Shown here: positions 12,372 to 64,000 of the stretch, piece after piece | Position numbering within the stretch: position 1 is the stretch's first letter | How the letters are laid out: every line of letters starts with the position of its first letter | Origin: Euphorbia lathyris | Lineage: Eukaryota; Streptophyta; Magnoliopsida; Malpighiales; Euphorbiaceae | DNA: 64,000 bases | NCBI RefSeq assembly: GCF_963576675.1 | Contig: NC_088917.1 | Span: 14,350,001-14,414,000 of the forward strand | Reading direction: 5' to 3' | The notes under the pieces: model-generated | Databases searched by the model: none | Seen by the model: only the letters and a program-made list of their open reading frames with translations | Told to the model about the DNA's origin: nothing | Program-made: the position numbers and the translations under genes

Positions 12372-12401
12372 ATTTGAAAACGGTTATTTCTGTCCGTCAT
12401 C

Positions 12402-13697
12402 ATGTCTGCTCTAATCTCAAAAAATATTCCCGATCTCTCAAAATTAGAGCCCTTAGACGGTCTGAACTACAAAAGATGGTCTCAGAAAATGCTTATATTT
12501 TTTGAACAATTAGACCTTGATTATGTCGTCCTGTCTGATCCCCCTGTCGACCCAAACGGTTCTGCTATGTCGCTTATCGTTCAACAATACGATAATCAGT
12601 CTGCTAAATATGAAAAAGATAACAAAACTGTTAGAGGACATCTCCTTAATCATATGTCGAACCCACTATTCGATATATTTGTCAACAAAAAGTCTGCGAA
12701 AGAAATCTGGGTTTCTCTAAAAGATAAATATGGGTCTGATGATGCTGGAAAAAGAAAATATGTTGTTGGCAGGTGGTTACATTATCAGATGGTTGATCAG
12801 AAACCAATTATTGATCAAATTCACGAATATGAGAACCTTGTTGCTGAAGTTCTCAGTGAAGGGATGAATATGTGCGATATGCTTCAAGCTAATGTTCTGC
12901 TGGAGAAGTTCCCTCCTTCCTGGAGTGACTTCAGAAACCACCTGAAGCACAAAAAGAAAGATTTCAGCCTGCAGGAGCTTGTTAGTCATATGCGAACTGA
13001 AGAAGCAAACAGAATGAAAGATAAGCAACTTTCCTCTATTTCTGTTTCTATTAATGCTAATGTGGTTGAATCTGCTGTGATTCCAAAAGACAGATCAAAA
13101 GGGCATGCAAACAAGTCCCAAAAAGGTTTCAAACAGAATAAGTCTTTCAAGCATGGAAAAGTTCAAAAGCGAAAGGTTGAATGCTTTGTGTGTGGAAAAC
13201 CCGGGCACAGAGCATTTCAATGTTTCCAAAGGAAGAACCAACAAAATTCAAATCAAAATGCTCACACAAAGCCTACCGGACAATCCAATTTGGTGGAGAA
13301 CGATGAAATCATTGCTGCTGTGGTGGTAGAGTCGAACTTGGTGGAAAACAAAATTGATTGGGTGTTGGATACTGGAGCTACCAGACACTTATGTTCAAAC
13401 AGGGAGCTGTTTCATCATTTTGAGGATGCTGCTGATGGAGAGTGCGTCTACATGGGTAACACTGCAACTGCTGGTGTTGTTGGTAAAGGAACAGTCTTAC
13501 TCAAATTAACTTCTGGAAAAAGTTTATCATTGAATAATGTTCTGTATGTGCCTTCACTTCGTAGGAATCTTATTTCTGGTAGTTTATTAAATAAGGCTGG
13601 TTTAAAAATTACTTTTGAGGCTGATAAGGTGATTCTTACTAAGAATGGGACCTTTGTAGCGAAAGGGTATCTAGGTGATGGGCTTTTTTTATCATGA
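12402..13697 (+). CDS. Copia gag-protease polyprotein (ORF1)
   Basis: 431 residues. The N-terminal two thirds is a copia-type gag (UBN2-like; GLNYKRWSQKM near residue 25, and KEIWVSLKDKYG near residue 105). A basic stretch leads into one zinc knuckle, CFVCGKPGHRAFQC, at about residues 263-276, and an aspartic protease with LDTGATRHLCSN near residue 323 and a flap-side KSLSLNNVLYVP. Gag packages element RNA and protease matures the polyprotein. The ATG is the first one after the LTR. The frame closes with TGA at 13695-13697, overlapping the ATG of the next frame (ATGA). Most copia elements have one continuous gag-pol frame, so the stop here is either a mutation or a recoding site. Confidence 0.93.
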   Translation: MSALISKNIPDLSKLEPLDGLNYKRWSQKMLIFFEQLDLDYVVLSDPPVDPNGSAMSLIVQQYDNQSAKYEKDNKTVRGHLLNHMSNPLFDIFVNKKSAKEIWVSLKDKYGSDDAGKRKYVVGRWLHYQMVDQKPIIDQIHEYENLVAEVLSEGMNMCDMLQANVLLEKFPPSWSDFRNHLKHKKKDFSLQELVSHMRTEEANRMKDKQLSSISVSINANVVESAVIPKDRSKGHANKSQKGFKQNKSFKHGKVQKRKVECFVCGKPGHRAFQCFQRKNQQNSNQNAHTKPTGQSNLVENDEIIAAVVVESNLVENKIDWVLDTGATRHLCSNRELFHHFEDAADGECVYMGNTATAGVVGKGTVLLKLTSGKSLSLNNVLYVPSLRRNLISGSLLNKAGLKITFEADKVILTKNGTFVAKGYLGDGLFLS

Positions 13698-16402
13698 ACA
13701 CTGTTGATGTTAACTCTGTTGGAATTAATGCAAGTTCTTCTGGTTCTGCTTATTTATGTGAGTCTTTGGATGTTTGGCATGGTAGATTAGGACATGTGAA
13801 CTATGCTTCTATTAAAAGGTTGAAAAATATGCATGTTATTGATATTGTCAATTCTGAGCATGAAAGAAAATGTTCTATTTGTGTAGAAGCTAAATTTGCC
13901 AAAAAGCCTTTTCCATCTGTTACTAAGAGAAGTACTGAATTGCTTGAATTAATTCATTCTGATCTAGCTGACTTTAAGAATTCCATTAGTAGGGGTGGTA
14001 AAAGATGGTATATGACCTTTGTTGATGACTTTTCGAGATACACCAAAGTATATCTTTTAAGATCAAAAGATGAGGCTGAAAGTATGTTTCTAAAATATAA
14101 AATGGAAGTAGAAAATCAACTAGATAGAAAAATAAAAAGGCTTAGATCTGATAGAGGTGGAGAATACGGAACTAATTTTCTTAAAACGTTTTGTGAGGAA
14201 AATGGCATTATACATGAAACTAGTGCGCCATATACACCACAACAAAACGGTATAGCGGAAAGGAAAAATAGAACGCTTAAGGAAATGATGAATGCCATGT
14301 TGATTAGTTCTGGTATGCCTGATAATATGTGGGGGGAAGCTGTTTTGTCTGCATGCTACATTTTAAATAGAGTTCCTCATAAAAAATTAGACAAAGCTCC
14401 CTATGAGCTTTGGAAGGGGTATTCGCCTAATTTAAATTTCTTGAGGGTTTGGGGTTGTCTTGCCAAAGTTGCTTTTCCATCTTTTAGAAAACCCAACATA
14501 GGGTCAAAAACCTTTGATTGTGTTTTTATTGGATATGCTTCTAATAGTGCTGCATTTAGATTTATGGCACTAAATGACTATAACATATGTGAATCTAGAG
14601 ATGCAGAATTCTTCGAAAATATTTTTCCTTTAAAGAAAAATATTGTGAGTGATGATGTTGGTCCCTCTAATACTATATCTGTTAGTGATTCTCTTGCTTC
14701 TAGTTCCTTGGAAAAACATGATGAATGTGAACATGAACCTAGAAGAAGTAAAAGAAGGAAAATAGCTAATAGTTTTGGACCCGACTTTGTTTCCTCTTTT
14801 CTGCTAGAAAATTCAGATAGAATAGATGATGCTTTTATGTCTGCCTATCTAATAGAAGAAGATCCTAAGACATATAACGAGGCCATGACCTCTGTAGATG
14901 CTAATTTTTGGAAAGAGGCTATAAAAAATGAATTAGACTCTATTATGGTCAATCACACTTGGGATCTAGTCTCCTTGCCTAAAGGGTCCAAAACTATAAA
15001 ACTTAAATGGATCTTCAAAAGGAAAAGAAGACCTGATGGATCCATTGAAAAGTTCAAAGCTAGATTAGTTGCCGTGGGCTATAGTCAAAAGAAAGGAATT
15101 GATTATTTTGATACTTACTGTCCTGTTACTAAAATTTCTACTATTAGAATCTTAATTGCAATTGCAGCAATACATAATTTGGTGGTACATCAGATGGATG
15201 TAAAAACAGCTTTTCTAAATGGTGATTTAGAAGAAGAAATCTATGTGCAACAGCTTGAGGGAAATGTTGTACCCGGTCAGGAAGATAAGGTATGCAAACT
15301 GAGGAAGTCATTGTACGGCCTGAAACAGGCACCCAAATAATGGTATGAAAAGTTTAACTCCACTTTACTTTCTGATGGGTACGTAGCTAATGGATCAGAT
15401 ACATGCGTTTATTCTAAATCATTTGGATCAAATTATGTGATTGTATGTCTTTATGTGGATGATATGCTTATCTTAGGTACTAATTTAGAAGCAGTAAATA
15501 ACACCAAAGCCTTCTTATCATCACAATTTGACATGAAAGACATGAGAAAAGCTGATGTAATTCTTGGTGTCAAAATTACAAAAACTGAAAATGGCTTTTC
15601 TTTAGGACAATCACATTATGTTGAGAAGTTATTGAAAAAGTTTGATAGCTTTGATGTAGTGCCAGCTAGAACACCCTATGATCCTAGCATATGTCTTACT
15701 AAAAATAAAGGACATAGTGTCTCACAAGAAGAATATGCTAAGATTATTGGGAGTGTTATGTTCTTAATGACTCATACTAGACCTGACATTGCATATGCTG
15801 TAAATAGATTGAGTAGATATACTCACAATCCAAATGATGAACATTGGAATGCACTTCGTCGTTTACTTAAATACTTGAGAGGTACCATGAACTTTAATTT
15901 GCATTTTAATAAATTTCCTGCTGTTTTAGAAGGATATAGTGATGCAAACTGGTCATCCAAAAATGATTTGGTCTGTTCCACTAATGGTTATGTTTTCATT
16001 TTGGGTGGTGGTGCCGTCTCTTGGAGATCATGTAAACAAACCTGTATTGTACGCTCAACCATGGAATCAGAATTTATAGCACTAGAACTAGCTAGTCAAG
16101 AAGCAGATTGGTTGAGAAGTTTATTGGCAGATGTCCCATTGTGGGGGAGATCTAATGCACCTATCTCACTTCATTGTGATTCACAGGCAGCCATGGGTAC
16201 TGCAAAAAACAGTGTCTACAACGGAAAGAAAAGACACATTCGCATTAGACATAGTGCATTAAGACAACTCTTGAAACATGGGGTAATTGCCTTAGATTTT
16301 GTGAGATCAGAGAAGAATCTAGCTGATCCGTTCACCAAAGGGTTACCTAGAAGAATGGTTCTAGAAACGTCGAGGGGAATAGGCCTAAAGCCCACTGATT
16401 AA
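13694..16402 (+). pseudogene. Copia integrase-RT-RNase H (ORF2) with one nonsense codon
   Basis: The frame lies at -1 relative to ORF1. It shows the GAG-pre-integrase motif VWHGRLGHVNYASI, integrase D,D,E residues in HSDLADF, RSDRGGEYG and NGIAERKNR, and RT from about 14880 with QMDVKTAFLNGDL. A TAA at 15338-15340 interrupts RT after YGLKQAPK; since Gln is the common residue here, one CAA-to-TAA change explains it. The same frame resumes with the YVDDM active site (15449-15463) and RNase H residues in [15 protein letters not shown] and HCDSQAAM, ending at 16402. Integrase and RNase H are otherwise clean, which fits a fairly young copy. Confidence 0.9.
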
Positions 16403-42474: not shown

Positions 42475-43134
42475 GGGAGAGAGAAACTTTTTGATTGCTA
42501 TGAGAGGTGGTGAACAGATTCCAACGCTTGGACAGGGTAAAATGAGTATTCGATAATTTAGATGGAAGGAAAAGAGAGAGGTAACTGATGTAAAAAAGAG
42601 TCAACAGAAGAAAAAGTAGGTCAACAGTCATTGTGGCTACGAGTGTAACAAAGTGTAAAGTTGTATGACTTTTATGTGATATTTTGAAGTTGAGTGGCCA
42701 TATCATAAAAATAGTTAAAGTTCTATGGCCATAGGTGTAATTTACCCTTACTTTATATACACCTAAATTCCTATAATTTATTCAATTAGAGATCAGAATG
42801 ACCGAGGAAGAAAAAGTGAAGGACTCATCATCTCTATCAGGTAGCTGCTTCTTCCTTCCTGAATCTAATCTATTTTATAATACGATTGCAAAACTATCTG
42901 TAAGGTTCGTTTACTCTTTTGGCAGGTCGATGTAAGCGAATCAATGTCAGCGGTTTGACAGACGAAGAACTAGAGAATTGTGTAAATGGATTCAGTGAAG
43001 AAAATTTTATGGGAAAATTCCAATTTGGAGAAGTTTATCGCGGAACTTATAATGGAACAGAGGTGGTTGTGAAGATTTGGAAAAAACAGGGTAGATATAG
43101 AGTGCTTCCCGGGGAAAACGAAGGCAGATTGGAA
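42475..43134 (+). repeat. Duplicated 5' region of the pseudokinase gene, left copy
   Basis: The upstream segment and exons 1-2 here match 62943-63596 in direct orientation, including the CAACGCTTGGAC word, the TATA region and identical exon lengths (43 and 209 nt). Exon 2 differs at 7 of 209 positions by my count. The homology continues through intron 2 and exon 3 to the right edge at 64000, broken only by insertions in the left copy. Confidence 0.9.
42753..42759 (+). promoter_or_regulatory. TATA-like box of the pseudokinase gene
   Basis: TTATATA lies about 40 nt before the ATG at 42798. The paralogue has TATATAAA at 63213-63220 in the corresponding place, about 40 nt before its ATG. Confidence 0.45.
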
Positions 43135-46100
43135 GTGAGTTTCTTCGACTAGTTTTCTGAAATTTTTGCATTTTATTTATTTATTTTGTGGTAAGTAAAA
43201 TTGTGCTTCAATTTATTTTAGGCCTAATATACAAATAACCCCCTGAACTTGTCTAAATGTTGCAACTGCCCCCCTCAACTTTCAATTGTAACAACTTACC
43301 CCTTAAACTTATCCAATTGTAAAACATAACCCCAAATTGAGAATTTTTTTATCCCGTATTTGAAGCAACCGTAAAAAAGTTTTCCCGGATTCATATCACG
43401 CCAAAGATCTGATTATCATACTCCACGAGCATTGCATATTTTGTATTTCACGTGTTTCTTCAATTGCAGTCCATGTCAGCAATTTTGGGGTTGTGTTTAT
43501 ACAATTGGACAAGTTTGAGGGGGAAGTTGTTACAATTGAAAGTTGGAGGGGGCAGTTGCAACATTTGAACAAATTCAGGGGGTTATTTGTGTATTAGGCC
43601 TTTATTTTATAGGATGAAAGACGTTTACATAGATATTCCCAAATTTACGAGTTCCATCCAAATGTGGCGAAGCCGTGGGCAATCTGTCATGGCAGAAAAC
43701 ATCTTGCTATTGTTTATCATAGGAATCCAAAGGCAATCGACACACTACATAATCTCATTGAAAAAGGTATAGGTTAATTTCACTGTTGCCGAATCTTACT
43801 TTTGCTATTTCTTTTGGATATGGTGTGCATTGTTATATGGTACGGAGGGTTGGACATTGTTTCACTGTCACATTCATAAGATGTCGGTAGCGGACGAAAA
43901 TCCATTGATGCGCCGCTTAGGAGGACTTAAGAGCAGTAAAGAGATATAATGGCGAAGGGTAGGGGAAGACCTAAGCAAATTTGGAAGAGGGTGAGGAAGA
44001 CCTAAGCAAATTCGGAAGAGGGTGATCGAGAGTGATATGAGTTTATTGGGGATTGAGGAAAATATGGTAGTGCATAGGACGGAATGGAGAGAGAGAACGG
44101 TTTTGTAAGATGGTTCATGTTAGCCGATCCCGAATCATTTCAGGATTAAGGCTTTGTTGTTGTTGTTGCTGCTGCGGATGTTATTCATTTTGATAATCAG
44201 TTTCGTTTTGTTCTTCTAACTGTTAATCTAATTTACTTGTTTTTGCTCAAATCACAAAATCATTATATTTTGATGATATCAAGGTCGTTTTCCTATTTAT
44301 GAGGATTTATCTTAAACCCTTAATTTATTAATGGAACGACTGAACTAGTTGTTTGCATTTTTAGATAGTTTTACATGGGCACAGAGGATCAAGGTTGCTT
44401 TTGGGCTTGCTTCTTTACTGCGGTATATGCATACTCCACATCCTAATTGTCCAAGTAACTTGCCATATCTGATTCGCAACATAGATGCTGCTCATATATT
44501 GGTTGATCAGGTTGGTCTTTTTCTTTTGATTCCACTTTGCTTCTGTTCTTAATGATTGTAATAGGTTGATTCATTCATATTTAATGATGTTAGTATCATT
44601 TTTGCTAGTGGTTCTGCGAATAGTGTTGACCATGCACTTGTAAGGGCATCCTATTCTACGCCAGGACTGATGGAGTCGCATACTAGTCCTCCGGATTTCA
44701 TTGTTCAAGTCTTGTATTCTGATTCTATTTAATGCATGGTCTTTTCTTTTCAAAACAAAAAAGTAAAAAAATTCAGGGTTAAGGTCGTGGTAAGAACCCC
44801 TGACCTGTGCTTGCTGTTATTTGCATACGATCAGACTGCTATTCCTGTGTGTACCAAAATTTATGTATTTTTTCATTTTTATGTATTTCACGTGCTAGGA
44901 TCATGAGCCGCTGTTATTTGATTTTAGTATGATTTCTGGTGGAATTCTTACCGATAAAAGGGACCTTCTCGATCAACATTTACAAGGCTGTTTTGCTCAA
45001 CCAGGTTTTTTTATTCTCTTATCTACCTTTATTATTTGAAGTGTCGTACCTATGTTCTCATTGTGAAAATCCTCGTGTCTAATAGTTTGAATGCACTCAT
45101 CAGCCTGTACTTTTTCCCCTCATCAATAGCTATTGGATGAGGAAAATAGCCTGTCATTTTTCACACAAAAGATACTGATTGGAGTTCATGATATGGGATA
45201 ACCCATCAAAGTTCTTAAAATAACAAATTGGGTACTCACAAATGTGATTGTGGAAATGAACACTCATGGTAAGTGATATCAAAGGCACACCAGGCAACTT
45301 CCTAGTGCAAAGCATTGTTATTAAAAGACTCATATGCGCTCAGGCGAGGCGAGCACTTCAGCGCAGGTGCTGGGCATGAAGAAAGCATGCTTCTACAATT
45401 TTCTGGCTTTTATTTTTTTTGGAAATGTTGGAAGCTATTTTTGAAAGGAAAGTAGAAAACATTAATAATTGGAATGATTTATCAAAGTACATAAGTACTT
45501 TAAGGAAATAGTGTCACATAACTCATAAATATTGATTTGGTTTTAAGACATTAATTCTAGTTTCTGTAACAGATTAAACATACTAAAGGTAAGGAAAGTG
45601 GATGAATAGGAAAATTAAGATTGTTATAATATAGATTTGTTTCTATTGCGTACTTTGGGATTTTTCAGACTTAAAAATGATGACCATGACTTATGTGATT
45701 AATATTTATTTCGTAAAGTTCGATGTTGTTGTTTGTGTTTTTACCCTTTAATATTTCAAGTAGTGTCTCACTTATGTAAGGCGGGCGCCTAACTCCTAGG
45801 GAGGTTCGATCTATTAGATTTAGCCCCTTAAACTTGCTTAAAATGTCTCATTAGTCCACTGAGCCCTCGTGGTAGAACAAGGAAAGATTTGGATAAGTTA
45901 AAATGTGGATCACTTTAAGCAAGTTCAGTGGACTAATAGATCATTGTAACCACTTCAGGGTGTGAATAGGTCATTGTCAGCAAGTTTAGGAGACTAATGA
46001 GACATTTCCAAAGCTCAGGGGGGCAATTAGATAGTCTGAACAAGTACAGGGAGCTCCTATTGTATATTTTGAAGTACAATAAAATTTCTTCATCTCACAA

Positions 46101-49100
46101 AAAATAATTTTTTTTGTGCGACTCTCCCCTATCATGTCAAATTTCTCCAAACGACTTGGAAAATGTTTCTAAGTTATCTTTTATGGAAAATTTAGATGAA
46201 GGGACAACCATTAGGAAAGAGCACTTATGCAAGAAGAAGAAGAAACTATGATGATTGTATGGACAAAAGAACCGAAGAATCTCCTTTTTTTTAAGATAAC
46301 AGTTAAACGTTTGCTTCTGTTTGGGTTTCTTTTCTCTAAGTAATTTGCAATATAGGCTCAAGTTCCTTTTTCTTAAAAACCGTGTGATAGTGATAAGGTC
46401 AGGGAGAAAGGAGGGCCAAAGGTGTTAAGGATGTACACTAGGAGAAAAGGTGGACACGTGTAAGTGTGTTAGTGGTTTGGCTTTTATAGGGTATGTATTA
46501 AATAAGGCCTGGTGTTAGTAAGGCAAGGTATTGAGATGTTTAGTTGTTTTGGGAATCAGTCCTGGTTTGTCAGGGGATTCTTGGAGGGGGCTAGTCCCTG
46601 TGGGTTTATCACCATTAATGCTATTTTGTAATAGAGAGGGACATTTACTGTTCCATTGGTTATCTATATCATCTCGGATTAAACCTCTATTTGGGGTAAA
46701 ATTGGAACTTAATTTCATAGTTGGTCATGGTTGAAAAATAATTTCAACCAAGGGGCTGTTTCTCAACTGTAGTTGAGAAACGTTGCTACAGTAACCATTC
46801 CGGCGCACGTGGCGCCGGAATGGTCATCCATGAAGGGATGGGTGAATTTTGTTTTGTACCCATTCCGGCGTCAGGTACGCCGGAATGGATACAGAACAAA
46901 ATTCACTCATCCCTCCACCTAATATTTTTGCAAAGGAATATTGTACCCATTCCGGCGTACCTGACGCCGGAATGGGTACATCTTTATAATATGTGACCAT
47001 TATGGCGTACCTTTCGCCGTAATGGTACAAACATTAACCACAGTCACAAAAACAGCCCCTTCTGTTGAATAATTTCCTAACCATTACTAATAGTGTAATA
47101 TTATTTATAATTTTGACCCCAAACAGAAGTTTAATCCTATCATCTCTATCTTTCTTCCTCTTCTCTGTTCTTGTTAATTCTTTACATTTTTATACCTTGT
47201 GTTGGTTGATTCTTATCACCGTGCCATTTTAGTCCAAGTATCATCATACTTTATTATCTTTATGAACTGTGTTTGTTTAAATCTAATTTCAATTTTGGAA
47301 CCTCTCACTGGATGAGTGAATTTTGATATGCAGGTCCAGGTAGATGGTCGGATAGATGTGATGTTTTTTCTTATGGTGTTGTTCTACTGTCTTTAATAAG
47401 CAAAAGAATCTACAAAGACGATGGTGACTGCATTAATGTGTCGCTTGTTTATGAATTGGGGAAGAATGAGCACAAACAGCATAACTCAGTTGCTTCTTTT
47501 GGTAAATTGAAGTCTTCCTTGATGCATCCAAGTCTAGAGTTAGAACCAGATTTTCACTTCAATGATGCCATTGAAATTACCAATTTGGCATTGCTGTGTG
47601 TTGAATACGACCCTCAGAAACGACCAACAATGGACCAAGTTGTTAGATATATGCAGAATATGCATATTGTTCAACATAATGCCAATACTTGGGAGTGTTG
47701 CAAGATGCTTGATGGTGTTGATGAGATTCTCCAATTGCTGTACCGTCCTAAGTATCGTCGAGGTACTTATAAATATCTATTCTACCTTTGTAAATTAATC
47801 ATGTACCTTGACAAGTTAACGCACTCTTTGTTATCAGCTTTATCTTTTTCTTGATTTCTGCTTTTCTATTGTGGAATGTTTAAATTCAACTAGTTGAAAT
47901 AACAGGCCAAGGCACTTCTCCTTTTCTTTTCTTCTTTTATCAATTTTTTTCTGGATTAATTTTCTCTTTAACAGATATTAACAATTAACGAAAAAAAACA
48001 GATGCCCTGATAAACCGTCTGTGATCAGTGCACATTTTCTTTATAAGAATTCCAATAATGAACATCTTGAATTTGTGAAGTAACCCCGGATATTGGCATT
48101 AGGATTAGTGGTTTTGCAAACATTTTTCTAGATTCATCTTAGAAAACTTTTACAAGGGAGTCTGAGATGTTTGTATGTTGGTTGGTGGGGGATTTTTTTG
48201 TTATGCTTTCACTATTTTATATTGATGCAAGTTGCTAAGAGTGTTGCATCTTGCAATGAGCTTATGTTGTGCCTCTTAAACCCCAAATACTGCCTTGGGA
48301 ATTAGTTTTTTTTTTGTTTTTTTACTAACGCTGTGCTGCAGAACCTTTCGGAAGACTTTAAGGCTGTCTTCAATTGAAACGGGAAATTAAAGATTGCTAC
48401 AAACAATCAAAGAAATAGAATAATAATGGTTTGGTTTACTTGTAGGTAGAGAAAGCAGCTTTGAGCCTAAACATAATTCCTCCCCTACTACTAAGAACAG
48501 AGCTAAACGTGCAGATAACAATATTCGTCATACCATACGAAAAAGCATAACTAACTTTCTATATATAATCCATACATAGTCCCTGTACTACCCTCCAGCT
48601 CACTTCCCCTAGGACCCAGAGAAGACTTTGGTTGCCTGCTCAGCAGCCGTCACCTCTATTTCTTCTAATATAAACCTTCCAGGCCTGTGCCTATTAGAAT
48701 AATTTGGAATTACTCTTAGATGTTTGTATGTAATTTGCTGTGCGCTTTTCTTACTAACTTTCTTTTGCTTTCAACATTTTACATTTGTGGAAGTTCTTTA
48801 GAGGATTTTCGCACTCCATGCAATGAGCTTCCTTTGTGTGTTTTAAAGTTTACATCTTAAATTGATAATTGCCAAAAATGTTAAAAATCACGTACTATAG
48901 CAATTTTTTCTGTGCTCCTTGTTTTACTTGTGCGTTTTTGTTCTTTTGTTTTTTTTTTCTTTCAAGACATTGGCATGTTTTCTTTTAGAAAATGTGGTAG
49001 TTAAATATATGTGGCTTTTTTGGACAGTGAAGGAATTTTGGCAACCTTCAAAACGGCGTCGGGGCTTAATAGTCAACCGGTTCAAGGGCTTGATGCATGG

Positions 49101-52100
49101 AAATAAAGTCTGTGGTGAAAGTCTAGCAAGTGAGCATCTGTATTTCATGCAAAAACAAATAATTTCTTTTATCTATATCTTTCTAGCATGTCAAAATATG
49201 CCGTACATGGAAGGCGAGGTGTATGTGAGGCAATTTCTGAGTGCTATAGTGATGTTTCATATAATTGAATAAAATCACTAAAATAAGAAACCAAATTCAC
49301 TTTTAGTGATTTTATTCAATTATTTTCCTATTTGAATTAAAAGAATCCTAAAAGTTATGGTTTTTAGTTTAGGAAATAAGTATTACAATTAATTAGTATT
49401 TTAGGAAGTGTAAATCAGTACACTATTGTGAGGTTTCTAAATGTCTAAAATTAGAAATGCTCAAGTATGGAGACACTTGTGTCAAGACTTATTGTTTAGG
49501 AAGGGGACAGCTGAAAGCGTTATTTGCGCCTCAATTCGCCTAGGTCATTTCCTTTTCGTCGCTAAGGCCATACAAGAATCTGTTGCTTTATTTGCGCCTT
49601 GCACATTTTCTGTCATTTATAGGATGACCAAAACACCAAGAAATTTCACCAAAGTTGCGAAATTTGTTTGAGTGTTTTTTCGATAAGTCCTAGGATAATT
49701 TCTCTTGATTCAGCAATTTGGTTCATCAGACTTAGCTTCTTTGACAATTTCTTTGGCTTCTTTAAAATGCAATATACTGTAAAAAGGATTTGGTATATTC
49801 CTATAACCTGAGTCCATTTCTCGACTTAAAAAGGGTTGGCAGCATGTTAGGGGGATTCAACATTTTGTGAAAAAGAAATTATGTTTTTAAAGTTGTACGT
49901 TTTCAATATTGTGCTCATAATCCTTTTTTCTATTCTATGTCCTAGTTATCAAATCTTCAATTGGGGAACATAATGAGATCAAGGTTTTCTCTTATAAAGA
50001 ACTGGTTGATGCCACTAATAGATTTGGCCAGGAAAATCTCATCGGTCAATTTCAATTTGGAAACTTGTTTCGTGGAGAGAGGGAAGGAAAAAAAGTGATT
50101 GTGAAGATATGGGAGATCAATGAAGAGCGTGGAGTTTATAGGCTTCATAATGAAGACCGGTTAAGGGTATGCTGCTGAAATATATTAGATTGTTTAGTGA
50201 ATTCATATTTAATACACAGAAATATATTAGATTGTTTAGTGAATTCATACTTAATACACACATTACTTGCCTCACAATGAATTCATATTTCAGGATGAAA
50301 TTTCTTTACTTCGACATCCTGAGCTGTTCACTCATCCTAACTTGGTAAAGATGATTGGATATTGTCCCGATGAAGAAAAACTCGGTGCTGTTTATGATTT
50401 GGATCCACACGACACTCTACATAATCTTGCACCCAAAGGTACTGCTTTTTTCCTTTTTAATTTATGGTTATAGTTTTGTAATGCAGTCTGCGTTATTACT
50501 TGGGAATTGAGACGTACATCAATTGTTTTCATGTGTTTAAAAGCTATGAAGTACGGAAACTCTTCATGACATGCGTTTCCCCATTTCCAGCAGATGTGGG
50601 AAACGGAAACTCTCGAAATCTGATACGAAACATTTCCGGACACATTTCTGTAATCACCCAAAATATGAAACGCGTTTCTCAATTTTTAAACGGTTTTCCC
50701 TATCTATTTTGATTAAAATTCTGGAAATTCAAACTTTCTATTTTGCAATTCCTATTCAATCTAAGATTAGAAAAATTGAAACTTCCTATTTGAGAGATAA
50801 TTCCTTCCTTGTATACTTCAATTTAAAGAACTTACCCATATTTCTTTCTCCTATAATCTTTGTCTCTTGAATCTTGATTGACCTTGGACTTTCTTCCTCT
50901 TGTTCTTCAATCATGTCCTTTTTAATGTATTATTATATTTTTAATATTTATAAATATGCCCCTATACGAGCCTTGGCACAACGGTAAACGTTGTTGTCGT
51001 GTGACTGAGAGGTCACGGGTTCGAGTCTTAGGAGCGACCTCTTGCCAAAAAAAAAAAATTGGTAGGGGAAGGCTTGCCCCAGTACACCCTTGTGGTAGGA
51101 CCCCTCCCCGGACCCTCGCTTAAGCGGGGATGCGTAGTGCACCGTTCCCCCTTCTGTTTCTGATACTTTATGCTTAACCCTTTGTAGTAACTTTATTGCT
51201 TCGAGTTGTTAGAAACTAATGCAATTACGATAAATGAAACACAAACAAACACACAAGAATTATTTACCCAGTTCGCTACTCAATTTGAATGACTACTTCT
51301 GGTGGCACTACCAAGCCAGGATATTTTACTATAATTTTCGAGATGCGGATTACAAAGAAAGAGGCTATATTACCCAGTTGGATCGCTGAAGTTGGGCCTA
51401 TCTATTAGTCTCCAAAGCCCAACACGAGTAACATACTTGAGCTTAAAATTTAGTGTGCCTATTTCTTATGGTCACTGCTATATTTACTTATTCTTGATCA
51501 TGTCCCGGTGGCCTTTTGTCCACTGGCATGCATGATGCGATCGTTTATTTTGCTTGAGAGATTATTTGCAGAAAGTGATTTGACATTTTCGATTGCTTAT
51601 TGATTAAATTAACTAGTTTTAATAGACGGACATTGTAGCTCATTCCTATTCTTGCTTTATAATGAATGAGTTGGTTATGTTTTATTATATTATCCAATGT
51701 CTTGCCCTGTTATTTTATAATAAATTGTGTTTTCACCTACAGATGAGTTCACTTGGCTTCAGAGAATGAAAGTTATTTATGAATTTGCCAACCTGCTTAA
51801 GTATTTTCATGGTCCTAATCCACCGTATGCGCCCTATAGAGTTGGCAACGTTGAAGCTGCGAGAATAATACTCGATAAGGTATGCTGCATATCTGTCTTG
51901 TTGATTCTATCTTTTATTTTTGTTGTTGTTCTTTTTGCTTCTGTATTGAACTTTGGAACTACATTGATATGTAGGATTACAGGCCAAAACTGTTTGATTT
52001 TGGGATGACTGTTGGTGGAATCATTCTTAGCTTGCGAGAAGAAAGAAACGCGCATATGTGTGGACGACCCCGTGGTTACGGGGATAGGAGCAGAGGTATG

Positions 52101-53535
52101 TAATCCTAATATACCTCAACTTGTAATAGGACCAAAGAATAATGTAGACCTAATACATCACCAACTTGTCCATAATAGTAGTTTGGCTTTCTAAATTTTG
52201 CAAGTGTCTCACCAGCTCCTTAAACTTGATTTTTTTGTATCACCAACTCCCAGGACTTGTCCATAAAAGTAGATTAGCTCCTTGAACTTTATAAGTGTCT
52301 CACCAACTTCCTAAACTTGCTTATTCCGTAATAACTAAATACAAAAATCTATTAAACCTAAATTCTAAAAATACATCTTCATCTATTCGAGAGATAATTT
52401 TTTCTCTTCTCGTACCTTTCAACCTATTATAAGAGTTAGTGTTGCAGGTATGAGAGATCGAATGCATGAGAATTGAGAGTTAGTATTATGGTTTTTGTAT
52501 TTAGTTGTTACCGAATAAGCAAGTTTAGGGAGCTGGTGAGACACTTATAAAGTTCGGAGAGCTAATCTACTTTTATAGACAAGTTTAGGGAGTTGGTGAT
52601 ATGGAATAATCGAGTTCTAGAGGCTGGTGAGACACTTGCAAAATTCAGGAAGTCAATCTACTATTATGGACAAGTTCAGGCAGCTGGTGGTGATGTACAG
52701 GGGCGGAAGAGGGCTCATGCCCCTCTGGCCGCCTGAACCGCCATGGCCTCGAATAAAATTTAGGGCCCGTTTGTTTTATCTGTTGTTTGCTGTTACAGTT
52801 TGTTATTGTTGTTGCTGTTACGGTTTGTTGTTTGCTCTTAGAAAAAACTGCTTTTCCAAAAAGCAGAGATTCTCTGCTTTTGTAAAAGGCAAACAGGAGA
52901 CCACTAACCAAACACCTAATGATGCTTTTCAATTGTAAAAGGCAAACATGTGGTCACTGAACAAACATCTAAAACTCTCCCTTTTGAGCAACAAACACCC
53001 CCTTACACACCACGTGTAAAATCCCCCCCCCCCTACCTATTCGCCACTGGTGATGTATTAGGCAAATAATGTATGTTTTCTAGTAGATGTGGTAAACAAC
53101 AAGTATTGAGCAACCCATACATGTGCAGGTATTTATATTCAAGAAGGAGATGTTTTTGCATATGGTTGGATACTAGTATGCTTGATATCCAAAACAAGTC
53201 CGACACCAGATGATGATGATCCAATTTATGATGCATTGGGGTGGAATGACCTTGAAGAATCGTCTGATGATATTGAGCAATCGCGAATCTCACTTGTGCA
53301 TGAAGACTTTATACAAGAACGTGGTTTCGATGAGAATGATGGAATTGAACTTACCAAGTTGGGGTTGAAGTGTACAAGACTAGTCGGTCGTCCTCCTTCA
53401 ATGAAGGAGGTTGTAAAGCGATTGAGGAATTTACATGTTTTTCGCAGCCATGGCGAAGAGATGGGCATCCAAAATTTGCCTTGCAGGTACAATAATTATA
53501 AATTTAAGTTAGTTCAACAAAAGATGGAGCAGTAA
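42798..53535 (+). CDS. Tandem double-pseudokinase protein, 12 exons
   Basis: The exons are 42798-42840, 42926-43134, 43613-43766, 44365-44510, 44899-45004, 47334-47762, 49028-49129, 49946-50166, 50294-50438, 51743-51879, 51975-52095 and 53129-53535. All borders are GT-AG and phases agree, giving 739 codons. Domain 1 (about 20-360) has a loop-like MGKFQFGEVYRG and Lys64 in VVVKIW. Its HRD-equivalent is IRN (172-174), the loop Asn is His179, and DFG is DFS (192-194). Domain 2 (about 412-720) has Lys450 in VIVKIW, VGN (552-554) for HRD, Arg559 for the loop Asn, and an intact DFG (572-574). Both keep the SxGV/AYGWILV-type F-helix region and a C-lobe with RPTM/RPPS. A basic linker (KRRRG) joins them. 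There is no signal peptide or membrane span, so a cytosolic scaffold or regulator is likely. The fold resembles the RLCK/receptor-kinase group, and loss of the catalytic Asp in both domains argues against phosphotransfer. A fusion of two transcripts remains possible. Confidence 0.75.
43221..43600. mobile_element. Mutator-like MITE in intron 2 of the pseudokinase gene
   Basis: TTTATTTTA flanks it at 43212-43220 and 43601-43609, a perfect 9-bp duplication. TIRs of about 110 bp start GGCCTAATATACAAATAACC and, inverted, GGCCTAATACACAAATAACC. The paralogue at 63597-63677 lacks it and preserves a single TTTATTTTA, an empty site. The right duplication lies 3 nt before the splice acceptor at 43613. 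Confidence 0.95.
43820..44176 (+). mobile_element. 5'-truncated RTE-type LINE fragment in intron 3
   Basis: It carries a degenerate C-terminal coding tail (RGRPKQIW, then VIESDMSLLGIEENMV, TEWRERT and ADPESF-like words) ending in GATTAAGGCTTTGTTG and a TTG repeat, the usual 3' end of plant RTE LINEs. An internal duplicated GGAAGACCTAAGCAAATT segment is present. The paralogous intron at 63880-63900 goes directly from TTTCTTTTGAATC to GCTGATGTTATTC without it. Confidence 0.75.
45818..46065. mobile_element. Inverted-repeat element in intron 5
   Basis: CTTAAAATGTCTCATTAGTC near the left end and GACTAATGAGACATTTCC near the right end are inverted copies, with AGTTCAGTGGACTAATAG words between. The ends resemble Mutator-like MITEs; no clean target duplication was found. 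Confidence 0.45.
46752..47062. mobile_element. Palindrome-rich MITE in intron 5
   Basis: AAGGGGCTGTTT and AAACAGCCCCTT form its ends. The interior has four hyphenated palindromes built from CCATTCCGGCG...CGCCGGAATGG (about 46794-46825, 46858-46890 and 46948-46982, plus a mutated one at 46999-47026). A larger foldback pairs GGATGGGTGAATTTTGTT with AACAAAATTCACTCATCC. Non-coding. Confidence 0.7.
47763..49027. other. Intron 6 of the pseudokinase gene
   Basis: 1.27 kb of AT-rich sequence with T-runs; no embedded coding or repeat structure recognised. Confidence 0.5.
50965..51158 (+). mobile_element. Au-like tRNA-derived SINE in intron 9
   Basis: An A-box-like CCTTGGCACAACGGTAAA (from 50971) and a B-box-like GGTTCGAGTCT (51018-51028) form the tRNA-derived head. 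The body contains AAGGCTTGCCCCAGTACACC, CCTTGTGGTAGGACCC, CCCCGGACCC, then GCGGGGATGCGTAGTGCACC, the consensus order of the plant Au SINE. An A-run interrupts the body at 51047-51059. Confidence 0.85.
52157..52697. mobile_element. Long inverted-repeat element in intron 11
   Basis: TACATCACCAACTTGTCC at the left and GGTGGTGATGTA at the right mark inverted arms of roughly 200 bp, with shared words such as TTGCAAGTGTCTCACCAG and ATAACTAAATACAAAAA and their complements. No coding content. Target duplication not resolved. Confidence 0.55.
52763..53002. mobile_element. PIF/Harbinger (Tourist-like) MITE, copy 2, in intron 11
   Basis: The ends GGGCCCGTTTGTTTTA and, inverted, GGGGGTGTTTGTTGCTC are flanked by TTA (52760-52762 and 53003-53005). 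Same family as 2749-2902, with an internal GTTGTTGCTGTTACGG expansion. It lies about 125 bp upstream of exon 12. Confidence 0.75.
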
Positions 53536-57418: not shown

Positions 57419-57604
57419 ATAAACATTTGAGCATTTTTATGATTTATTGTCCTACTAGATTATAATTTTCATTTTGAATTTGTAAAAATATTCGGCGTAA
57501 AAAATTTGATCAGTACATGTTGTTATATAATTAACTCAATGTATTATATTACAAAGAAAATTATTTATTTATTAAATCACGTCATAAAACTCGAATACCG
57601 ATTC

Positions 57605-58456
57605 ATGGTACAATTGACACATACAAACTTTTGGATACAGATTCATGGTCTTACACAGAATTTGTTTACTGAGACAGTGGCACAGGCATTGGGAAATTTC
57701 ATTGGGTCTTATGTATCTATGGACTCAAAAGCGAAATGGATAAATGAGCAAAGTTATCTCCGTGTGCGAGTTAGCGTGGATATCAGACAACCATTACAAA
57801 ATGGAAAAAAAGTAAGAAGGGCAGGAGGTGATTGGTTGAACTGTGTCTTTAAATATGAAAAATTACCAATTATATGTTTTATATGTGGTCTAATTGGACA
57901 TTTGGATAGACATTGTGAGATCTTTTTTCGTAGCAAGGAAGAAGACTTAGTGAGGGGGTGGGATGCTTCTATAAAGGCTCCCTTACGACGTGCTAGTGTT
58001 ATGGGAGGAGAAAGATGGCTGAAGGAAGAGGCTAGACCCGATGGAAATATGGTATATGGCTCAAACAGAAATGCTGGTAGTAGTACAACGGGACAGCGGA
58101 AGGAACCAACCCATAGACATAATCTACGACATCTATCAAAGAATTTTGGTGTAAGCTTTTATGCTCAGGAGGATGTGGAAATCCCTCCAGTTAATCTCTT
58201 GCAATCAGAAATTGGATTAGAAGTAGGAGAGGAAAGGAAAAGACGAAGAGGCGAACTTGTTGCATTTCAACCAAAACCAATTGAGAATATACAAGAGGTA
58301 ACCATTCAAACCATGGAAGTTGATGATCTATCCCCAAACCAGGAAAATGATAATGATAATAAAGCTTGCGAGCAAGAACAGAGAAACGCGAAGTTTCAAA
58401 ACAAAGCTAAGCAGCAAACAGGAAAGGAAGGCCAAATGGTCTGCCCAGAGCAATGA
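57605..58456 (+). pseudogene. LINE ORF1 protein, N-terminally truncated
   Basis: About 283 residues of element sequence. FWIQIHGLTQNLFTETVAQA is the middle of the DUF4283 RNA-binding domain, followed by a zinc knuckle, CFICGLIGHLDRHC, near residue 95, then a hydrophilic tail rich in Glu, Lys and Asn. The open frame upstream of 57602 is flanking DNA read by chance. The stop codon TGA at 58454-58456 overlaps the ATG of ORF2 (58453-58455). Confidence 0.85.
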
Positions 58457-61400
58457 AAATCTTTAGTTGGAACTGCGAAGGTCTGGGCAACACTAGGGCA
58501 GTTCCCATTCTGTGTGAGCTCATCAAAGCTCATAGGCCTGATGTTATTTTCTTGTATGAAACTCTGGTTTGTCAATCTCGCATTGAAGCTATCAGGGTAC
58601 GCATTGGTTTTGAAGGATGTTTTGTTGTTGATAGGATTGGGAGAAGTGGAGGAATAGGTGCTTTTGGAGAAAGTCCAGTATGTGCTCCTTAAGATCATTT
58701 TCATCAAATTACATTGATTTGACTGTAAATGATCCTAGGGAAGGAGACTGGCGTCTTACTGGTTTTTATGGGTATCAAAGAGAGCTAGACGAAGGACTTC
58801 TTGGGATTTACTAAGGAGCCTTGCTGCCGCCTCTCCTCTCCCATAGTCTATTTTATGAGATTTTAATGATCTACTTGTTCATAGTGATAAAAAAAAGGGA
58901 TGAATGAGCATCCTGAGTGGTGTTATAAGGGATTTAGAGATACACTTACTGATTGTGGCCTTACTAATATTCCGTTACAAGGATATCCATATACATGGGT
59001 ACGACACAGAGGTAAACCAAATGAAGTTCAAGAGAAGCTTGATCGAAGCCTTTGTACAGAAGCGTGGGGGAGGCGTTTTCCTGGTAATTTTTGTGTTAAT
59101 TCTATTGCTGCCACTTCAGATCACTCCCCAATAATCTTACATACATCAACCGATTTAACTATTCTAAAGCAAAAACAGTTCAGATTCGAGCAACGATGGC
59201 TAAGGGATGAGGAGATTTGGAATGTGATTAAGGAGGCATGGGGATCAGATAGGCGAACGGTACTGAGTTCGCGGTTAGCGCATGTGGCAGAGGTGTTTAT
59301 GAGATGGAGCAGAAGTAGTGATGTCAACTTTCGTCAGAAAACTGAACAATTAAAAGAAAAGTTAATACAACTACGTGATCTAGGAGGTCCAAATAATAGT
59401 GATGAGTATGAGTCGACCCGAGCTGAGTATGTGAGAATTATGGTTCAAGAGGAAGACCACTAGAAACAAAGAGCAAAAGTCTTATGGCTTCAAGAGGGAG
59501 ATTTGAATACTCGTTTTTATCATTCTTTTGCTAATGGAAGGCGGAAGCAGAACAATTTAACAGGGCTTAAGAATCAAGCAGGAGACTGGATTGATGATAA
59601 GGATGGGATGGGGCAGATTGTAATATAGTATTTTGAATCGGTTTTCTCTGATAGTAACAGTGAATGGAGTGAAGTGGTGGATTTGATGCAGCCACGCATC
59701 ACTGATTGAGACAATGAGCAATTACTACGACCACTTACAAAACAGGAATTCAAGAGAGCTTTATTCGATATGCATCCTGATAAGACTCTAGGACCTGATG
59801 GATTTAATCCAGGATTTTATCAAAAATTTTAGGACATAATTGGAGATGATATCTTCACAGCTGGGTCAACATGGTTTCATCAAGGTATGTTCCCCTCTAA
59901 GCTTAATAATACTATCATTACTCTCATTCCAAAGTGTGAGAATCCTGTTATTATGACTTAACTTCGTCCAATAGCACTGTGTAATGTTATACTCAGAATT
60001 TTCTCCAAAGTCTTAGCAAATAGATTAAAAATTCTTTTGCCTGGGATTATCTTTGAAAATCAATCTGCTTTTATTAAAGGGAGGTCTATTCATGACAACG
60101 TTTTGATTGCATTTGAACTTATCCATAGCATTAACAATAACGTTGCTAAAAAAAAGTAGGTAATGTGGCACTAAAGGTTGATATGAGTAAAACATATGAC
60201 AGGGTGGATTGGAATTATCTAAGAGAATTGATGCTAAAGTTGGGGTTTGCACATAAATGGGTGAATTTGATAATGCATTGTGTATCTTCTGTGCAATATA
60301 TGGTTAGAATAAATGATCAGTTGGTTGGTCCTGTTTGTCCAAAAAGAGGGCTCCGCCAAGGTGATCCACTATTACCGTATTTATTTCTGCTGTGTGTTGA
60401 AGGGTTGACATCATTATTGGTGGCAGCTGAGAATAGGGGGTTATTGCATGGGTGCCGAGTTAAGCGAGGGGCGCCGGCGATTTCACATTTGCTCTTTGCT
60501 GATGATGCATTCTTATTTTGCCAAGCTACCATATCTGAAGCTAGAGTGTTAAAAAAATTACTCAGATTATATGAATTAGCTTCGGGGCAGGCTATAAATT
60601 GTCAAAAATCCGGAATCATGTTTAGTAGAAATGTGGTAAATGACCTGGCTATGGGAATTTCTAGCATTTTGGGTATTACTAGTCCGTTGAATACGGGAAG
60701 GTATCTAGGTCTTCCATCGTTGGTGGGCAAAACGAAACGAGCAATCTTTGCACACTTCAGAGATAGATTATGGAAGCGGCTACAACGCTGGAGAGGGAAA
60801 GGAATATCAAAAGCTGGTAAGGCTACACTTATTCGAGCAGCAGGGCAAGCCATCCCAATCTATTTCATGAGTGTATTCTTGCTCCCTATATCGACGGCTG
60901 AGGAATTACAACGAATGCTGAATTCGTTTTGGTGGGGTAATAAAAAAGTCAGGTGAGAGAGGACTGAATTGGATGGCATGGGACAGATTATGTGCTCCAA
61001 AATTAATGGGAGGACTGAGTTTCTGAAATTTCACAGCCTTTAATCTTGCTATGTTGGGAAAACATGGATGACGGTTATTTACCAATCCATCTTCGCTTGT
61101 TAGTAAAGTTTTCAAAGCTAAATATTATTCAAGAGAGGATTTTATGGGGGCCTCATTGGGGCATTCACCAAGTTTTATATGGCGAAGTATCTGGAGTTCT
61201 CAACTAATCATTAGAGAATGAATTAGATGGAAAATTGGAAACGGTCAATCAATAAATGTGTGGAGTGAGAGATTGTTACATAATGAGGATGATGGCTATA
61301 TACGAACCCCTATGGTGGAAGGTTTGGAATATTTGAAAGTTAATGATTTGTTTATCCATAATTCTAGGGATTGGGATGAAGAGTTGTTGGAGGAAATTTT

Positions 61401-62577
61401 CGAGCATAGAGATATTACAGAAATTCATAAATTGGCTGTTGGTACGTTGAGTAGTGAGGATCGGTTAATATGGAAATTCCATTCTTCGGGAGGCTACACG
61501 GTGAAAAGTGCTTACCGGTTGGCTACAACGATGGAAGCAGGTGAAAGATTTCATGTTCAGGGAGCCTGGAAAAAATTATGGTATGCTGAAATTCCACAAA
61601 AGGTCCGGCATTTTGGTTGGCAATTAGCACGCAATTGTCTCCCAACGCGTGTGAATCTTCAATTTCGTGGGTTACAGGTATGTAGTAATTGTGTGATATG
61701 TAATGAACCTTGGGAGGATGGATGGCATCTTTTTATTGAATGTGCAGGAGCTATAAGAGTATGGCAGAAGGCGGGACTTCTGGAACGAATTAATGCGGAG
61801 GCGACATTGGCTGAGAACCTGACAACATGGTTTCATAATATAATTAGAGCAGCACCGGAACAAATTGTAAAAACATTTTTGATGCACCTCTGGAGTTTAT
61901 GGCAGGCTAGAAATACCCGTCTTTGGCAATATGAGATTCACACAACAGATCAAATAGTGGCTCAAGCTTGCACAGTACTTAATGATTGGTCAGAAGCAAA
62001 TGCCTTGAGGAATCGGACTAGTACAGGAGAACAATGGATCGGAAATACAGTAGCAAGAAATATTTCATCTGCTGGTTGCACGGCTTGGCATCCGCCATCA
62101 GAAGGATTTCTCTCGTGTTGTGTTGATGCCGCATGCTTTAACGCTGATGGTCGTGCAGGGATGAGAACAGCAGTACGAGATGCAAATGGACAGTTTGTAA
62201 TGGGGAGATGTGCGGGTTTGTTATGTTGTCCGACAACACGAGAATGTGAGGCCGAAGCTCTATTACATGCTATGCAATGGCTAGAAGCTGATGGAATAAG
62301 GAATGTGGTTTTCGAATCTGATGCTAAACAAGTGATTGATGCAATAAATTCTAGTTCTATTGATGATTCTGAATTTGGGGATAGAATTACTCAAATACGA
62401 TCGATCCTAACATCAAATGACTCTTACTCAGTCAAATGGATACGGCGGCAAGCGAATGGGATGACACATGTGTTAGCACAGTCTTCTCATTTATCCACTT
62501 GCCCTTCTTTTTTTAATTTATTACCGAGTTATGTTTCTGTTTCATTGTTACAATTTTGCCATGATTTGGCTCATTAA
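58453..62577 (+). pseudogene. LINE ORF2: AP-type endonuclease, RT and RNase H, multiply broken
   Basis: The endonuclease begins SWNCEGLGNT and has VIFLYET for the usual SET Glu motif, then a frame break near 58650-58860 and SIAATSDHSPIIL with the SDH motif. TAG at 59461, further stops near 59626, 59707, 59830 and 59959, and a frame change in an A-run at about 60155 precede the RT core: ALKVDMSKTYDRVDW, RQGDPLLPYLF and the LLFADDAF active site (FADD). Another frame change follows at about 60950. 61258-62577 is open and holds a zinc-binding-RT segment and an RNase H domain with VDAACFNADGR, ECEAEALLHAM and VFESDAKQVIDA. It cannot mobilise itself. Confidence 0.9.
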
Positions 62578-63259: not shown

Positions 63260-64000
63260 ATGACTGAGGAAGAAAAAGTGAAGGACTCATCATCTCTCTC
63301 AGGTTCGCTGCTTCTTCCTGAATCTCCCTGTTTATTTTATAATACGATTGCAAAACTATCTGTAAGGTCGTTTACTCGTTTTGGCAGGTCGATGTAAGCG
63401 AATCAATGACAGAGGTTTGACAGACGAAGAACTAGAGAATTGTGTAAATGGATTCAGTGAAGAAAATTTTATGGGAAAATTCCAATTTGGAGAAGTTTAT
63501 CGCGGAACTTATGATGGAACAGAGGTGGTTGTGAAGATTTGGAAAAAACAGGCTAGATATAGAGTGCTCCCCGGGGAGAATGAAGGCAGATTGGAAGTGA
63601 GTTTCTTCGACTAGGTTTCTGATTTTGTTGCATTTTATTTTGTGGTAAGTAAAATTGTGCTTCAATTTATTTTATAGGATGAAAGACGGTTACATAACTA
63701 TTTCCAAATGTATGAGTTCCATCCGAATGTGGCCAAGCCATGGGCAATCTGTCATGGCAGAAAACATCTTGCTATTGTTTATCATACGAATCCAAAGGCA
63801 ATCGACACACTACATAATCTCATTGAGAAAGGTATAGGTTAATTTGACTGTTGCGGAATCTTACTTTCGCTATTTCTTTTGAATCGCTGATGTTATTCAT
63901 TTTGATAATCAGTTTCGTTTTGTTCTTTTAACTGTTAATCTAATTTACTTGTTTTTGCTGAAATCATAAAATCATTATATTTTGATGATATAAAGGTCGT
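63260..64000 (+). CDS. Second copy of the pseudokinase gene, exons 1-3, runs off the right edge
   Basis: Exons 63260-63302, 63388-63596 and 63678-63831 have the same lengths (43, 209 and 154 nt), phases and splice sites as the first copy and stay open. Protein changes in exon 2 include Val-to-Asp and Ser-to-Arg near INVSG/INDRG, Asn-to-Asp and Gly-to-Ala; the loop-like MGKFQFGEVYRG and the Lys in VVVKIW are unchanged. The intron 2 Mutator MITE and intron 3 RTE fragment of the first copy are absent. The HRD and DFG regions lie beyond the window, so whether this copy also lacks catalysis is unseen. Confidence 0.8.

Follow-up and report, generated by a model that had tools for sequence, protein, structure and literature searches.

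Whether a plant gene can join two kinase-like domains that have both lost their catalytic residues, and what such a protein might do, is the question raised by a locus of Euphorbia lathyris (NC_088917.1, assembly GCF_963576675.1), which lies at 42798..53535 on the + strand of the 64,000-nt stretch of DNA analysed here, hereafter the window. The initial annotation had joined twelve exons in phase into 739 codons, and its coordinates, exon number, phase and codon count proved correct, with GT/AG at all internal junctions and the TAA stop at 53533-53535. The 739-residue product is identical end to end to P0001, an uncharacterized E. lathyris protein (NCBI/UniRef), which supports the single fused gene model, and a Pfam scan (E up to 0.001) finds in it two protein-kinase stretches only. 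The exons of the gene model are as follows.

42798..42840, + strand: exon 1, with the start codon (agrees with P0001)
42926..43134, + strand: exon 2, domain 1 N-lobe, with the GKFQFG loop and Lys64
43613..43766, + strand: exon 3, domain 1 alpha-C region and hinge
44365..44510, + strand: exon 4, domain 1 degenerate catalytic loop IRNIDAAH (also residue alignment)
44899..45004, + strand: exon 5, domain 1 DFS and activation segment (also residue alignment)
47334..47762, + strand: exon 6, domain 1 C-lobe
49028..49129, + strand: exon 7, basic linker, within the low-confidence residues 355-405 (also predicted structure)
49946..50166, + strand: exon 8, domain 2 N-lobe, with the GQFQFG loop and Lys450
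50294..50438, + strand: exon 9, domain 2 alpha-C region and hinge
51743..51879, + strand: exon 10, domain 2 degenerate catalytic loop VGNVEAAR (also residue alignment)
51975..52095, + strand: exon 11, domain 2 DFG and activation segment (also residue alignment)
53129..53535, + strand: exon 12, domain 2 C-lobe, with the TAA stop

That 42798..53535 instead holds two neighbouring single-domain genes mis-fused by prediction, or yields chiefly domain-1 transcripts, is quite improbable, although the exon 6 frame reads through to a stop ending at 47854. Early-ending transcripts, which the initial annotation had named as a sign of two genes, have a partial counterpart in the E. lathyris models P0053, P0016 and P0054, which end after domain 1 or just inside domain 2; these are 95-99% identical across the shared stretches to P0006, a model with both domains, and the four could represent either a single locus with several isoforms or separate loci of nearly the same sequence. 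Against an artefact of fusion, two-domain models also occur in the records of Euphorbia peplus, Mercurialis, Turnera, Rubroshorea and Rhodiola, exon 7 is in frame with both neighbouring exons, and four 'lgn' proteins of 680-721 residues carry both domains on contigs of 2,255-2,518 bases, which presumably are spliced transcripts.

The residues reported earlier for the two domains were confirmed. Domain 1 keeps beta-3 Lys64 and alpha-C Glu86, and has I172-R173-N174 at the HRD motif, His179 at the loop Asn and D192-F193-S194 at the DFG motif, while domain 2 keeps Lys450 and Glu472, and has V552-G553-N554, Arg559 and D572-F573-G574 at the corresponding places. An additional lesion, absent from the initial annotation, is the replacement of the second Gly of the glycine-rich loop by Phe in both domains (GKFQFG and GQFQFG). 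With the HRD Asp, the loop Asn and the second loop Gly missing from both domains, the protein does not have the kinase-pseudokinase architecture that PMC6170490 describes for the plant tandem kinases (TKPs) it discusses, and neither domain has the intact RD-type catalytic loop of the RLCK-VII/PBL kinases. By sequence, then, the view that both domains are dead is supported, and the 739-residue protein is probably without catalytic activity.

The same lesions run through the relatives of the gene. The family set comprises 232 domain pieces from 155 retrieved proteins, among them the product of the window's gene as well as isoforms, fragments and fused models; the profile search, whose seeds all lack the HRD Asp, matched 928 proteins at E up to 1e-10, of which the best 120 were examined, and 16 weak matches, many with receptor domains, were set aside as unrelated (P0038-P0052 and P0170). 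The HRD Asp is absent from 191 of the 192 domains of the 155 retrieved proteins that cover the position (Asn in 177; Ser, Lys, Phe or Gly in 14), a count that describes the close family and not its border, because the seeds lack the Asp, the best 120 of 928 matches are listed, and the set-aside proteins possess it; since all 16 of the latter have the HRD Asp, their exclusion and the count are not independent. P0165 of Ziziphus jujuba (VLD), the sole counted family member with the Asp, could be a reversal, a retained state or an alignment quirk. At the catalytic-loop Asn position, His occurs in 171 and Asn in 11 of 193 family domains, and the second loop Gly is found in 0/186 family domains, against 18/18 informative domains of the 16 set-aside proteins. 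The beta-3 Lys (187/188), the alpha-C Glu (179/182) and the DFG-Asp (173/193) are kept in the family domains; the retention of Lys and Glu beside the lost catalytic residues argues for a kept fold, and together the three residues would still allow nucleotide binding or an unusual kind of catalysis.

The same lesions occur in single-domain relatives among several asterids and rosids. The lesions are therefore neither chance nor local events, and a local mutation of a normal kinase is rejected. Orthologues with an intact HRD, which had been held out as the evidence for such a mutation, were looked for and not met among the best 120 of the 928 profile matches. The tandem double pseudokinase had also been called unusual in plants, a statement that needs a limit, in that at least 36 of the retrieved protein models carry two or more family domains that span the HRD position, in every case without the Asp. 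P0170 of Erigeron canadensis, a distant relative at 28% identity, has two kinase domains, both with an HRD-type Asp.

Structure prediction, which had been suggested as a check, gives two kinase folds in the AlphaFold model of the whole protein (mean pLDDT 76.4, pTM 0.79; input alignment of 27 proteins, query included), with a linker at residues 355-405 where pLDDT falls below 50, and Foldseek matches the model to plant receptor and cytoplasmic kinases and IRAK4 in the PDB. Gene model, Pfam and AlphaFold thus agree on two kinase-like domains in one protein, as in TKPs. When the family profile was scored against PDB sequences, BIK1 reached 178 bits, PBL2 175, RIPK 163-165, CERK1 144 and RKS1 99, and the top five were BIK1, PBL2 and three RIPK-type entries, solved structures alone being compared. 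Single-sequence searches against solved structures put PBL2 and BAK1 best for domain 1, and CERK1 first, then PBL2, for domain 2. Among solved structures, the family therefore ranks closest by profile to BIK1/PBL2, the single-domain searches being less clear, and many relatives bear automatic PBL names. The proposal of a role as a receptor is unsupported, as Pfam finds kinase domains only and the profile favours cytoplasmic RLCK-VII; receptor kinase identity is rejected on the Pfam result, and the protein is probably cytoplasmic.

Internal duplication, which the initial annotation had read from the matching exon architectures of the two halves, is supported: the intron phases match, and for three of the four introns the two halves share one alignment column, the fourth lying 22 columns apart. 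In a tree of 106 of 251 domain pieces, hand-picked for taxon spread, at least 165 residues long and rooted on the P0170 domains, the first domains of Euphorbia, Mercurialis, Turnera, Rubroshorea, Rhodiola and Kalanchoe form one group (97/99), and the second domains of tandem proteins form a separate group with a support of only 81/91. Forcing the Malpighiales-type first and second domains together is rejected by the AU test (p = 0.0095), and a duplication within Euphorbia or Malpighiales alone is rejected by this test and the domain tree. Intron positions, domain tree and AU test thus indicate an origin through kinase-domain duplication or fusion, as for TKPs. Because the lesions are present in single-domain relatives, some of which (e.g. 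Cornus, Malus, Morus and Camellia) branch outside the clade with both tandem halves, the loss of the HRD Asp looks older than the doubling. The three domains of P0026 (Cinchona calisaya) and the two of P0036 (Corchorus olitorius), one of the latter under half complete, group by species; the dead domain was apparently multiplied independently in these plants, and doubling or tripling in the family probably arose more than once.

The window holds part of a second copy of the gene.

63260..63831, + strand: second tandem copy, exons 1-3, the rest lying past the window end

These exons are open, have the same lengths as those of the first copy, and share 94% protein identity with it over 135 residues; the upstream likeness of the two copies extends over a 767-base alignment (87%) spanning the 5' flank, exons 1-2 and the start of intron 2. 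No exact protein match for the second copy (63260-64000) was present among those retrieved, the best being 94%, and further E. lathyris proteins (P0003, P0005/P0009 and P0006/P0016/P0053/P0054) are on a contig whose length, 88 Mb, equals that of the contig with the present gene. Intron 2 of the first copy contains a 382-base stretch (43220-43601) with 105-base inverted arms, 90% complementary, which looks like a small inverted-repeat element, and intron 2 of the second copy has 81 bases only (63597-63677). Pieces of a non-LTR retroelement (zinc knuckle, reverse transcriptase and RNase H-like) occupy 57443-62577 between the two kinase-like genes. Elsewhere in the window are a Copia-type LTR element of three nearly abutting ORFs (12378-16402), with gag, integrase and reverse transcriptase domains in the first two ORFs, the two that were scanned, and a partial exostosin-type GT47 glycosyltransferase gene (1554-2150, - strand).

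Two family members come from parasitic plants and resemble those of spurges. P0008 of Orobanche gracilis shares 64% identity with P0006 of E. lathyris (627 residues), versus 35% with P0084 of Phtheirospermum, which like Orobanche belongs to Orobanchaceae; P0055 of Cuscuta europaea shares 57% with P0012 of Mercurialis (334 residues), versus 35% with P0158 of Solanum, and against five asterid relatives the two proteins show 34-39% identity. Both group with Malpighiales and not with the asterid relatives, and Orobanche falls inside Euphorbia in the full-length tree, which was built from 28 hand-picked proteins with Jatropha flagged as a long branch. In constraint tests whose p-values are weakened by the transfer groups having been named after tree inspection, forcing Orobanche with six Lamiales rows changed the fit by -207 log-likelihood units for domain 1 (p = 1.5e-124) and -191 for domain 2 (p = 4.8e-05), and the full-length tree rejected Orobanche outside Euphorbia (p = 0.0038) and outside Euphorbiaceae plus Cuscuta (p = 0.00027). 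In the domain tree, under the same caution, a placement of Orobanche outside Euphorbia was rejected for domain 2 (p = 0.0099) and not for domain 1 alone (p = 0.378). For Cuscuta, again with groups so named, grouping with Solanum (p = 6.7e-05) and, in the domain test, a position outside the Malpighiales first domains (p = 0.0055) were rejected, while a position outside Euphorbiaceae was not, in the full-length tree (p = 0.153) or in a second test (p = 0.115). The sequences therefore make both copies candidates for horizontal transfer from spurge relatives, supported for Orobanche and in part for Cuscuta. Contamination placed by scaffolding is a possible alternative, although the contigs that carry the two copies are long (51 Mb in Orobanche and 17.9 Mb in Cuscuta). 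If the transfers are true, two lineages of parasites that are unrelated to each other have retained genes from spurge relatives, and such retention would suggest that the genes serve a function where host and parasite meet.

Based on these analyses, we tentatively favour, with slightly less than even confidence, a paired adaptor or decoy, PBL-like in kind, that acts in immune signalling without catalysis. In the proposed course of events, the HRD Asp would have become Asn, the loop Asn His, and the second loop Gly mostly Phe or Thr in a single-domain ancestor, and the dead domain would then have been doubled within the gene, giving a pair of RLCK-type pseudokinase domains with a flexible basic linker between them. 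One or both domains may bind an active RLCK, or an effector with which a pathogen targets such a kinase, and the resulting change of shape might be passed on to a partner, perhaps an NLR. This reading is preferred because a dead PBL-like copy fits a decoy, ZED1 offers a precedent, and some cereal TKPs work with a helper NLR. According to the excerpts of the sources available, Asn (N173) replaces the HRD Asp in ZED1 (PMC6634424), ZRK pseudokinases bind PBL kinases and ZAR1 (PMC6634424, PMC9539561), and some cereal tandem kinases depend on a helper NLR (PMC12830362). The immune role and the partners of the tandem pseudokinase are thus proposed from likeness to these systems, and local tandem copies would fit an immune family.

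A non-catalytic protein that scaffolds active receptor or cytoplasmic kinases or regulates them allosterically, serving growth, symbiosis or reproduction with no immune decoy role, is a possible if rather less probable explanation: the predicted kinase fold and the Lys/Glu pair are kept, and pseudokinases with such roles are described in the available parts of PMC8141879 and, for EFR with BAK1, of PMC11259431, but the tandem copies and the presence of several members per genome in some plants give an immune-like impression. An atypical yet active kinase, as reported for Arabidopsis ILK1, would accord with the Lys, Glu and DFG-Asp kept in most counted family domains; it is nevertheless improbable, given that HRD Asp, loop Asn and second loop Gly are all altered, and in both domains. 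Still less credible is a gene family in decay, with constraint weak or absent, despite the loss of the catalytic residues, as exons 1-3 of the two tandem copies give dN 0.028, dS 0.146 and a ratio of ~0.19 (one pair, 135 codons) and open two-domain frames persist across distant genera. The adaptor or decoy reading can be carried further, to a speculation that we regard as unlikely, in which a eudicot clade of long-dead, doubled RLCKs acts as a two-headed decoy/adaptor immune receptor and was transferred at least twice from the spurge family (to Orobanche and Cuscuta), the parasite copies maybe blunting kinase signalling at the host-parasite interface.

Among known systems, the TKPs (RPG1, WTK1/Yr15, WTK3/Pm24 and Sr62) resemble the spurge gene in having two RLK/RLCK-type kinase domains per protein; however, several cereal ones are proven resistance genes, whereas for the spurge gene an immune role is proposed. 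In the available excerpts, one survey ascribes 52/92 TKPs to duplication (PMC6170490), and cereal TKPs are kinase-pseudokinase, pseudokinase-kinase or kinase-kinase (PMC6170490, PMC8956640, PMC6997164). The TKPs described there keep at least one active-type domain, in contrast to the spurge protein, which has it in neither half and whose loss looks older than the duplication. Janus kinases likewise have two tandem kinase-like domains, but are animal kinase-pseudokinase proteins with one active domain, which the excerpt of PMC6170490 compares with TKPs, and the homology claimed here is that of the kinase fold only. RLCK-VII/PBL proteins (BIK1, PBL2 and RIPK) are the highest-scoring solved structures for the spurge family profile, although BIK1 and PBL2 have an RD-type catalytic loop in alignments and the spurge family does not. 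The ZED1-related kinases (RLCK XII-2: ZED1, RKS1 and ZRK3) have a single kinase domain. RKS1, the one compared here in place of ZED1, scores 99 bits against 178 for BIK1 in what is a score ranking and not a tree, and, as it lies below many active kinases, the likeness to ZRKs appears to be one of lesion and not of close kinship. In the passages available, they are pseudokinases of a gene cluster with, as in the spurge family, Asn at the HRD Asp of ZED1, but ZED1, unlike the spurge gene, lacks the alpha-C Glu and has Trp at the DFG Gly (PMC6634424). No plant double pseudokinase was recognised among the literature matches listed or in the portions available of PMC6170490, PMC12830362, PMC8956640, PMC11153570, PMC8141879 and PMC6997164, and a tandem pair without an active-type domain appears to be new relative to the TKPs described in them, an earlier mention being possible.

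Tandem kinases form an expanding class of plant immune receptors, of which those described, as far as the excerpts extend, include one or more domains of active type. A conserved class without such a domain would part binding and switching from catalysis, and would offer a natural test of the signalling capacity of the kinase fold by itself.
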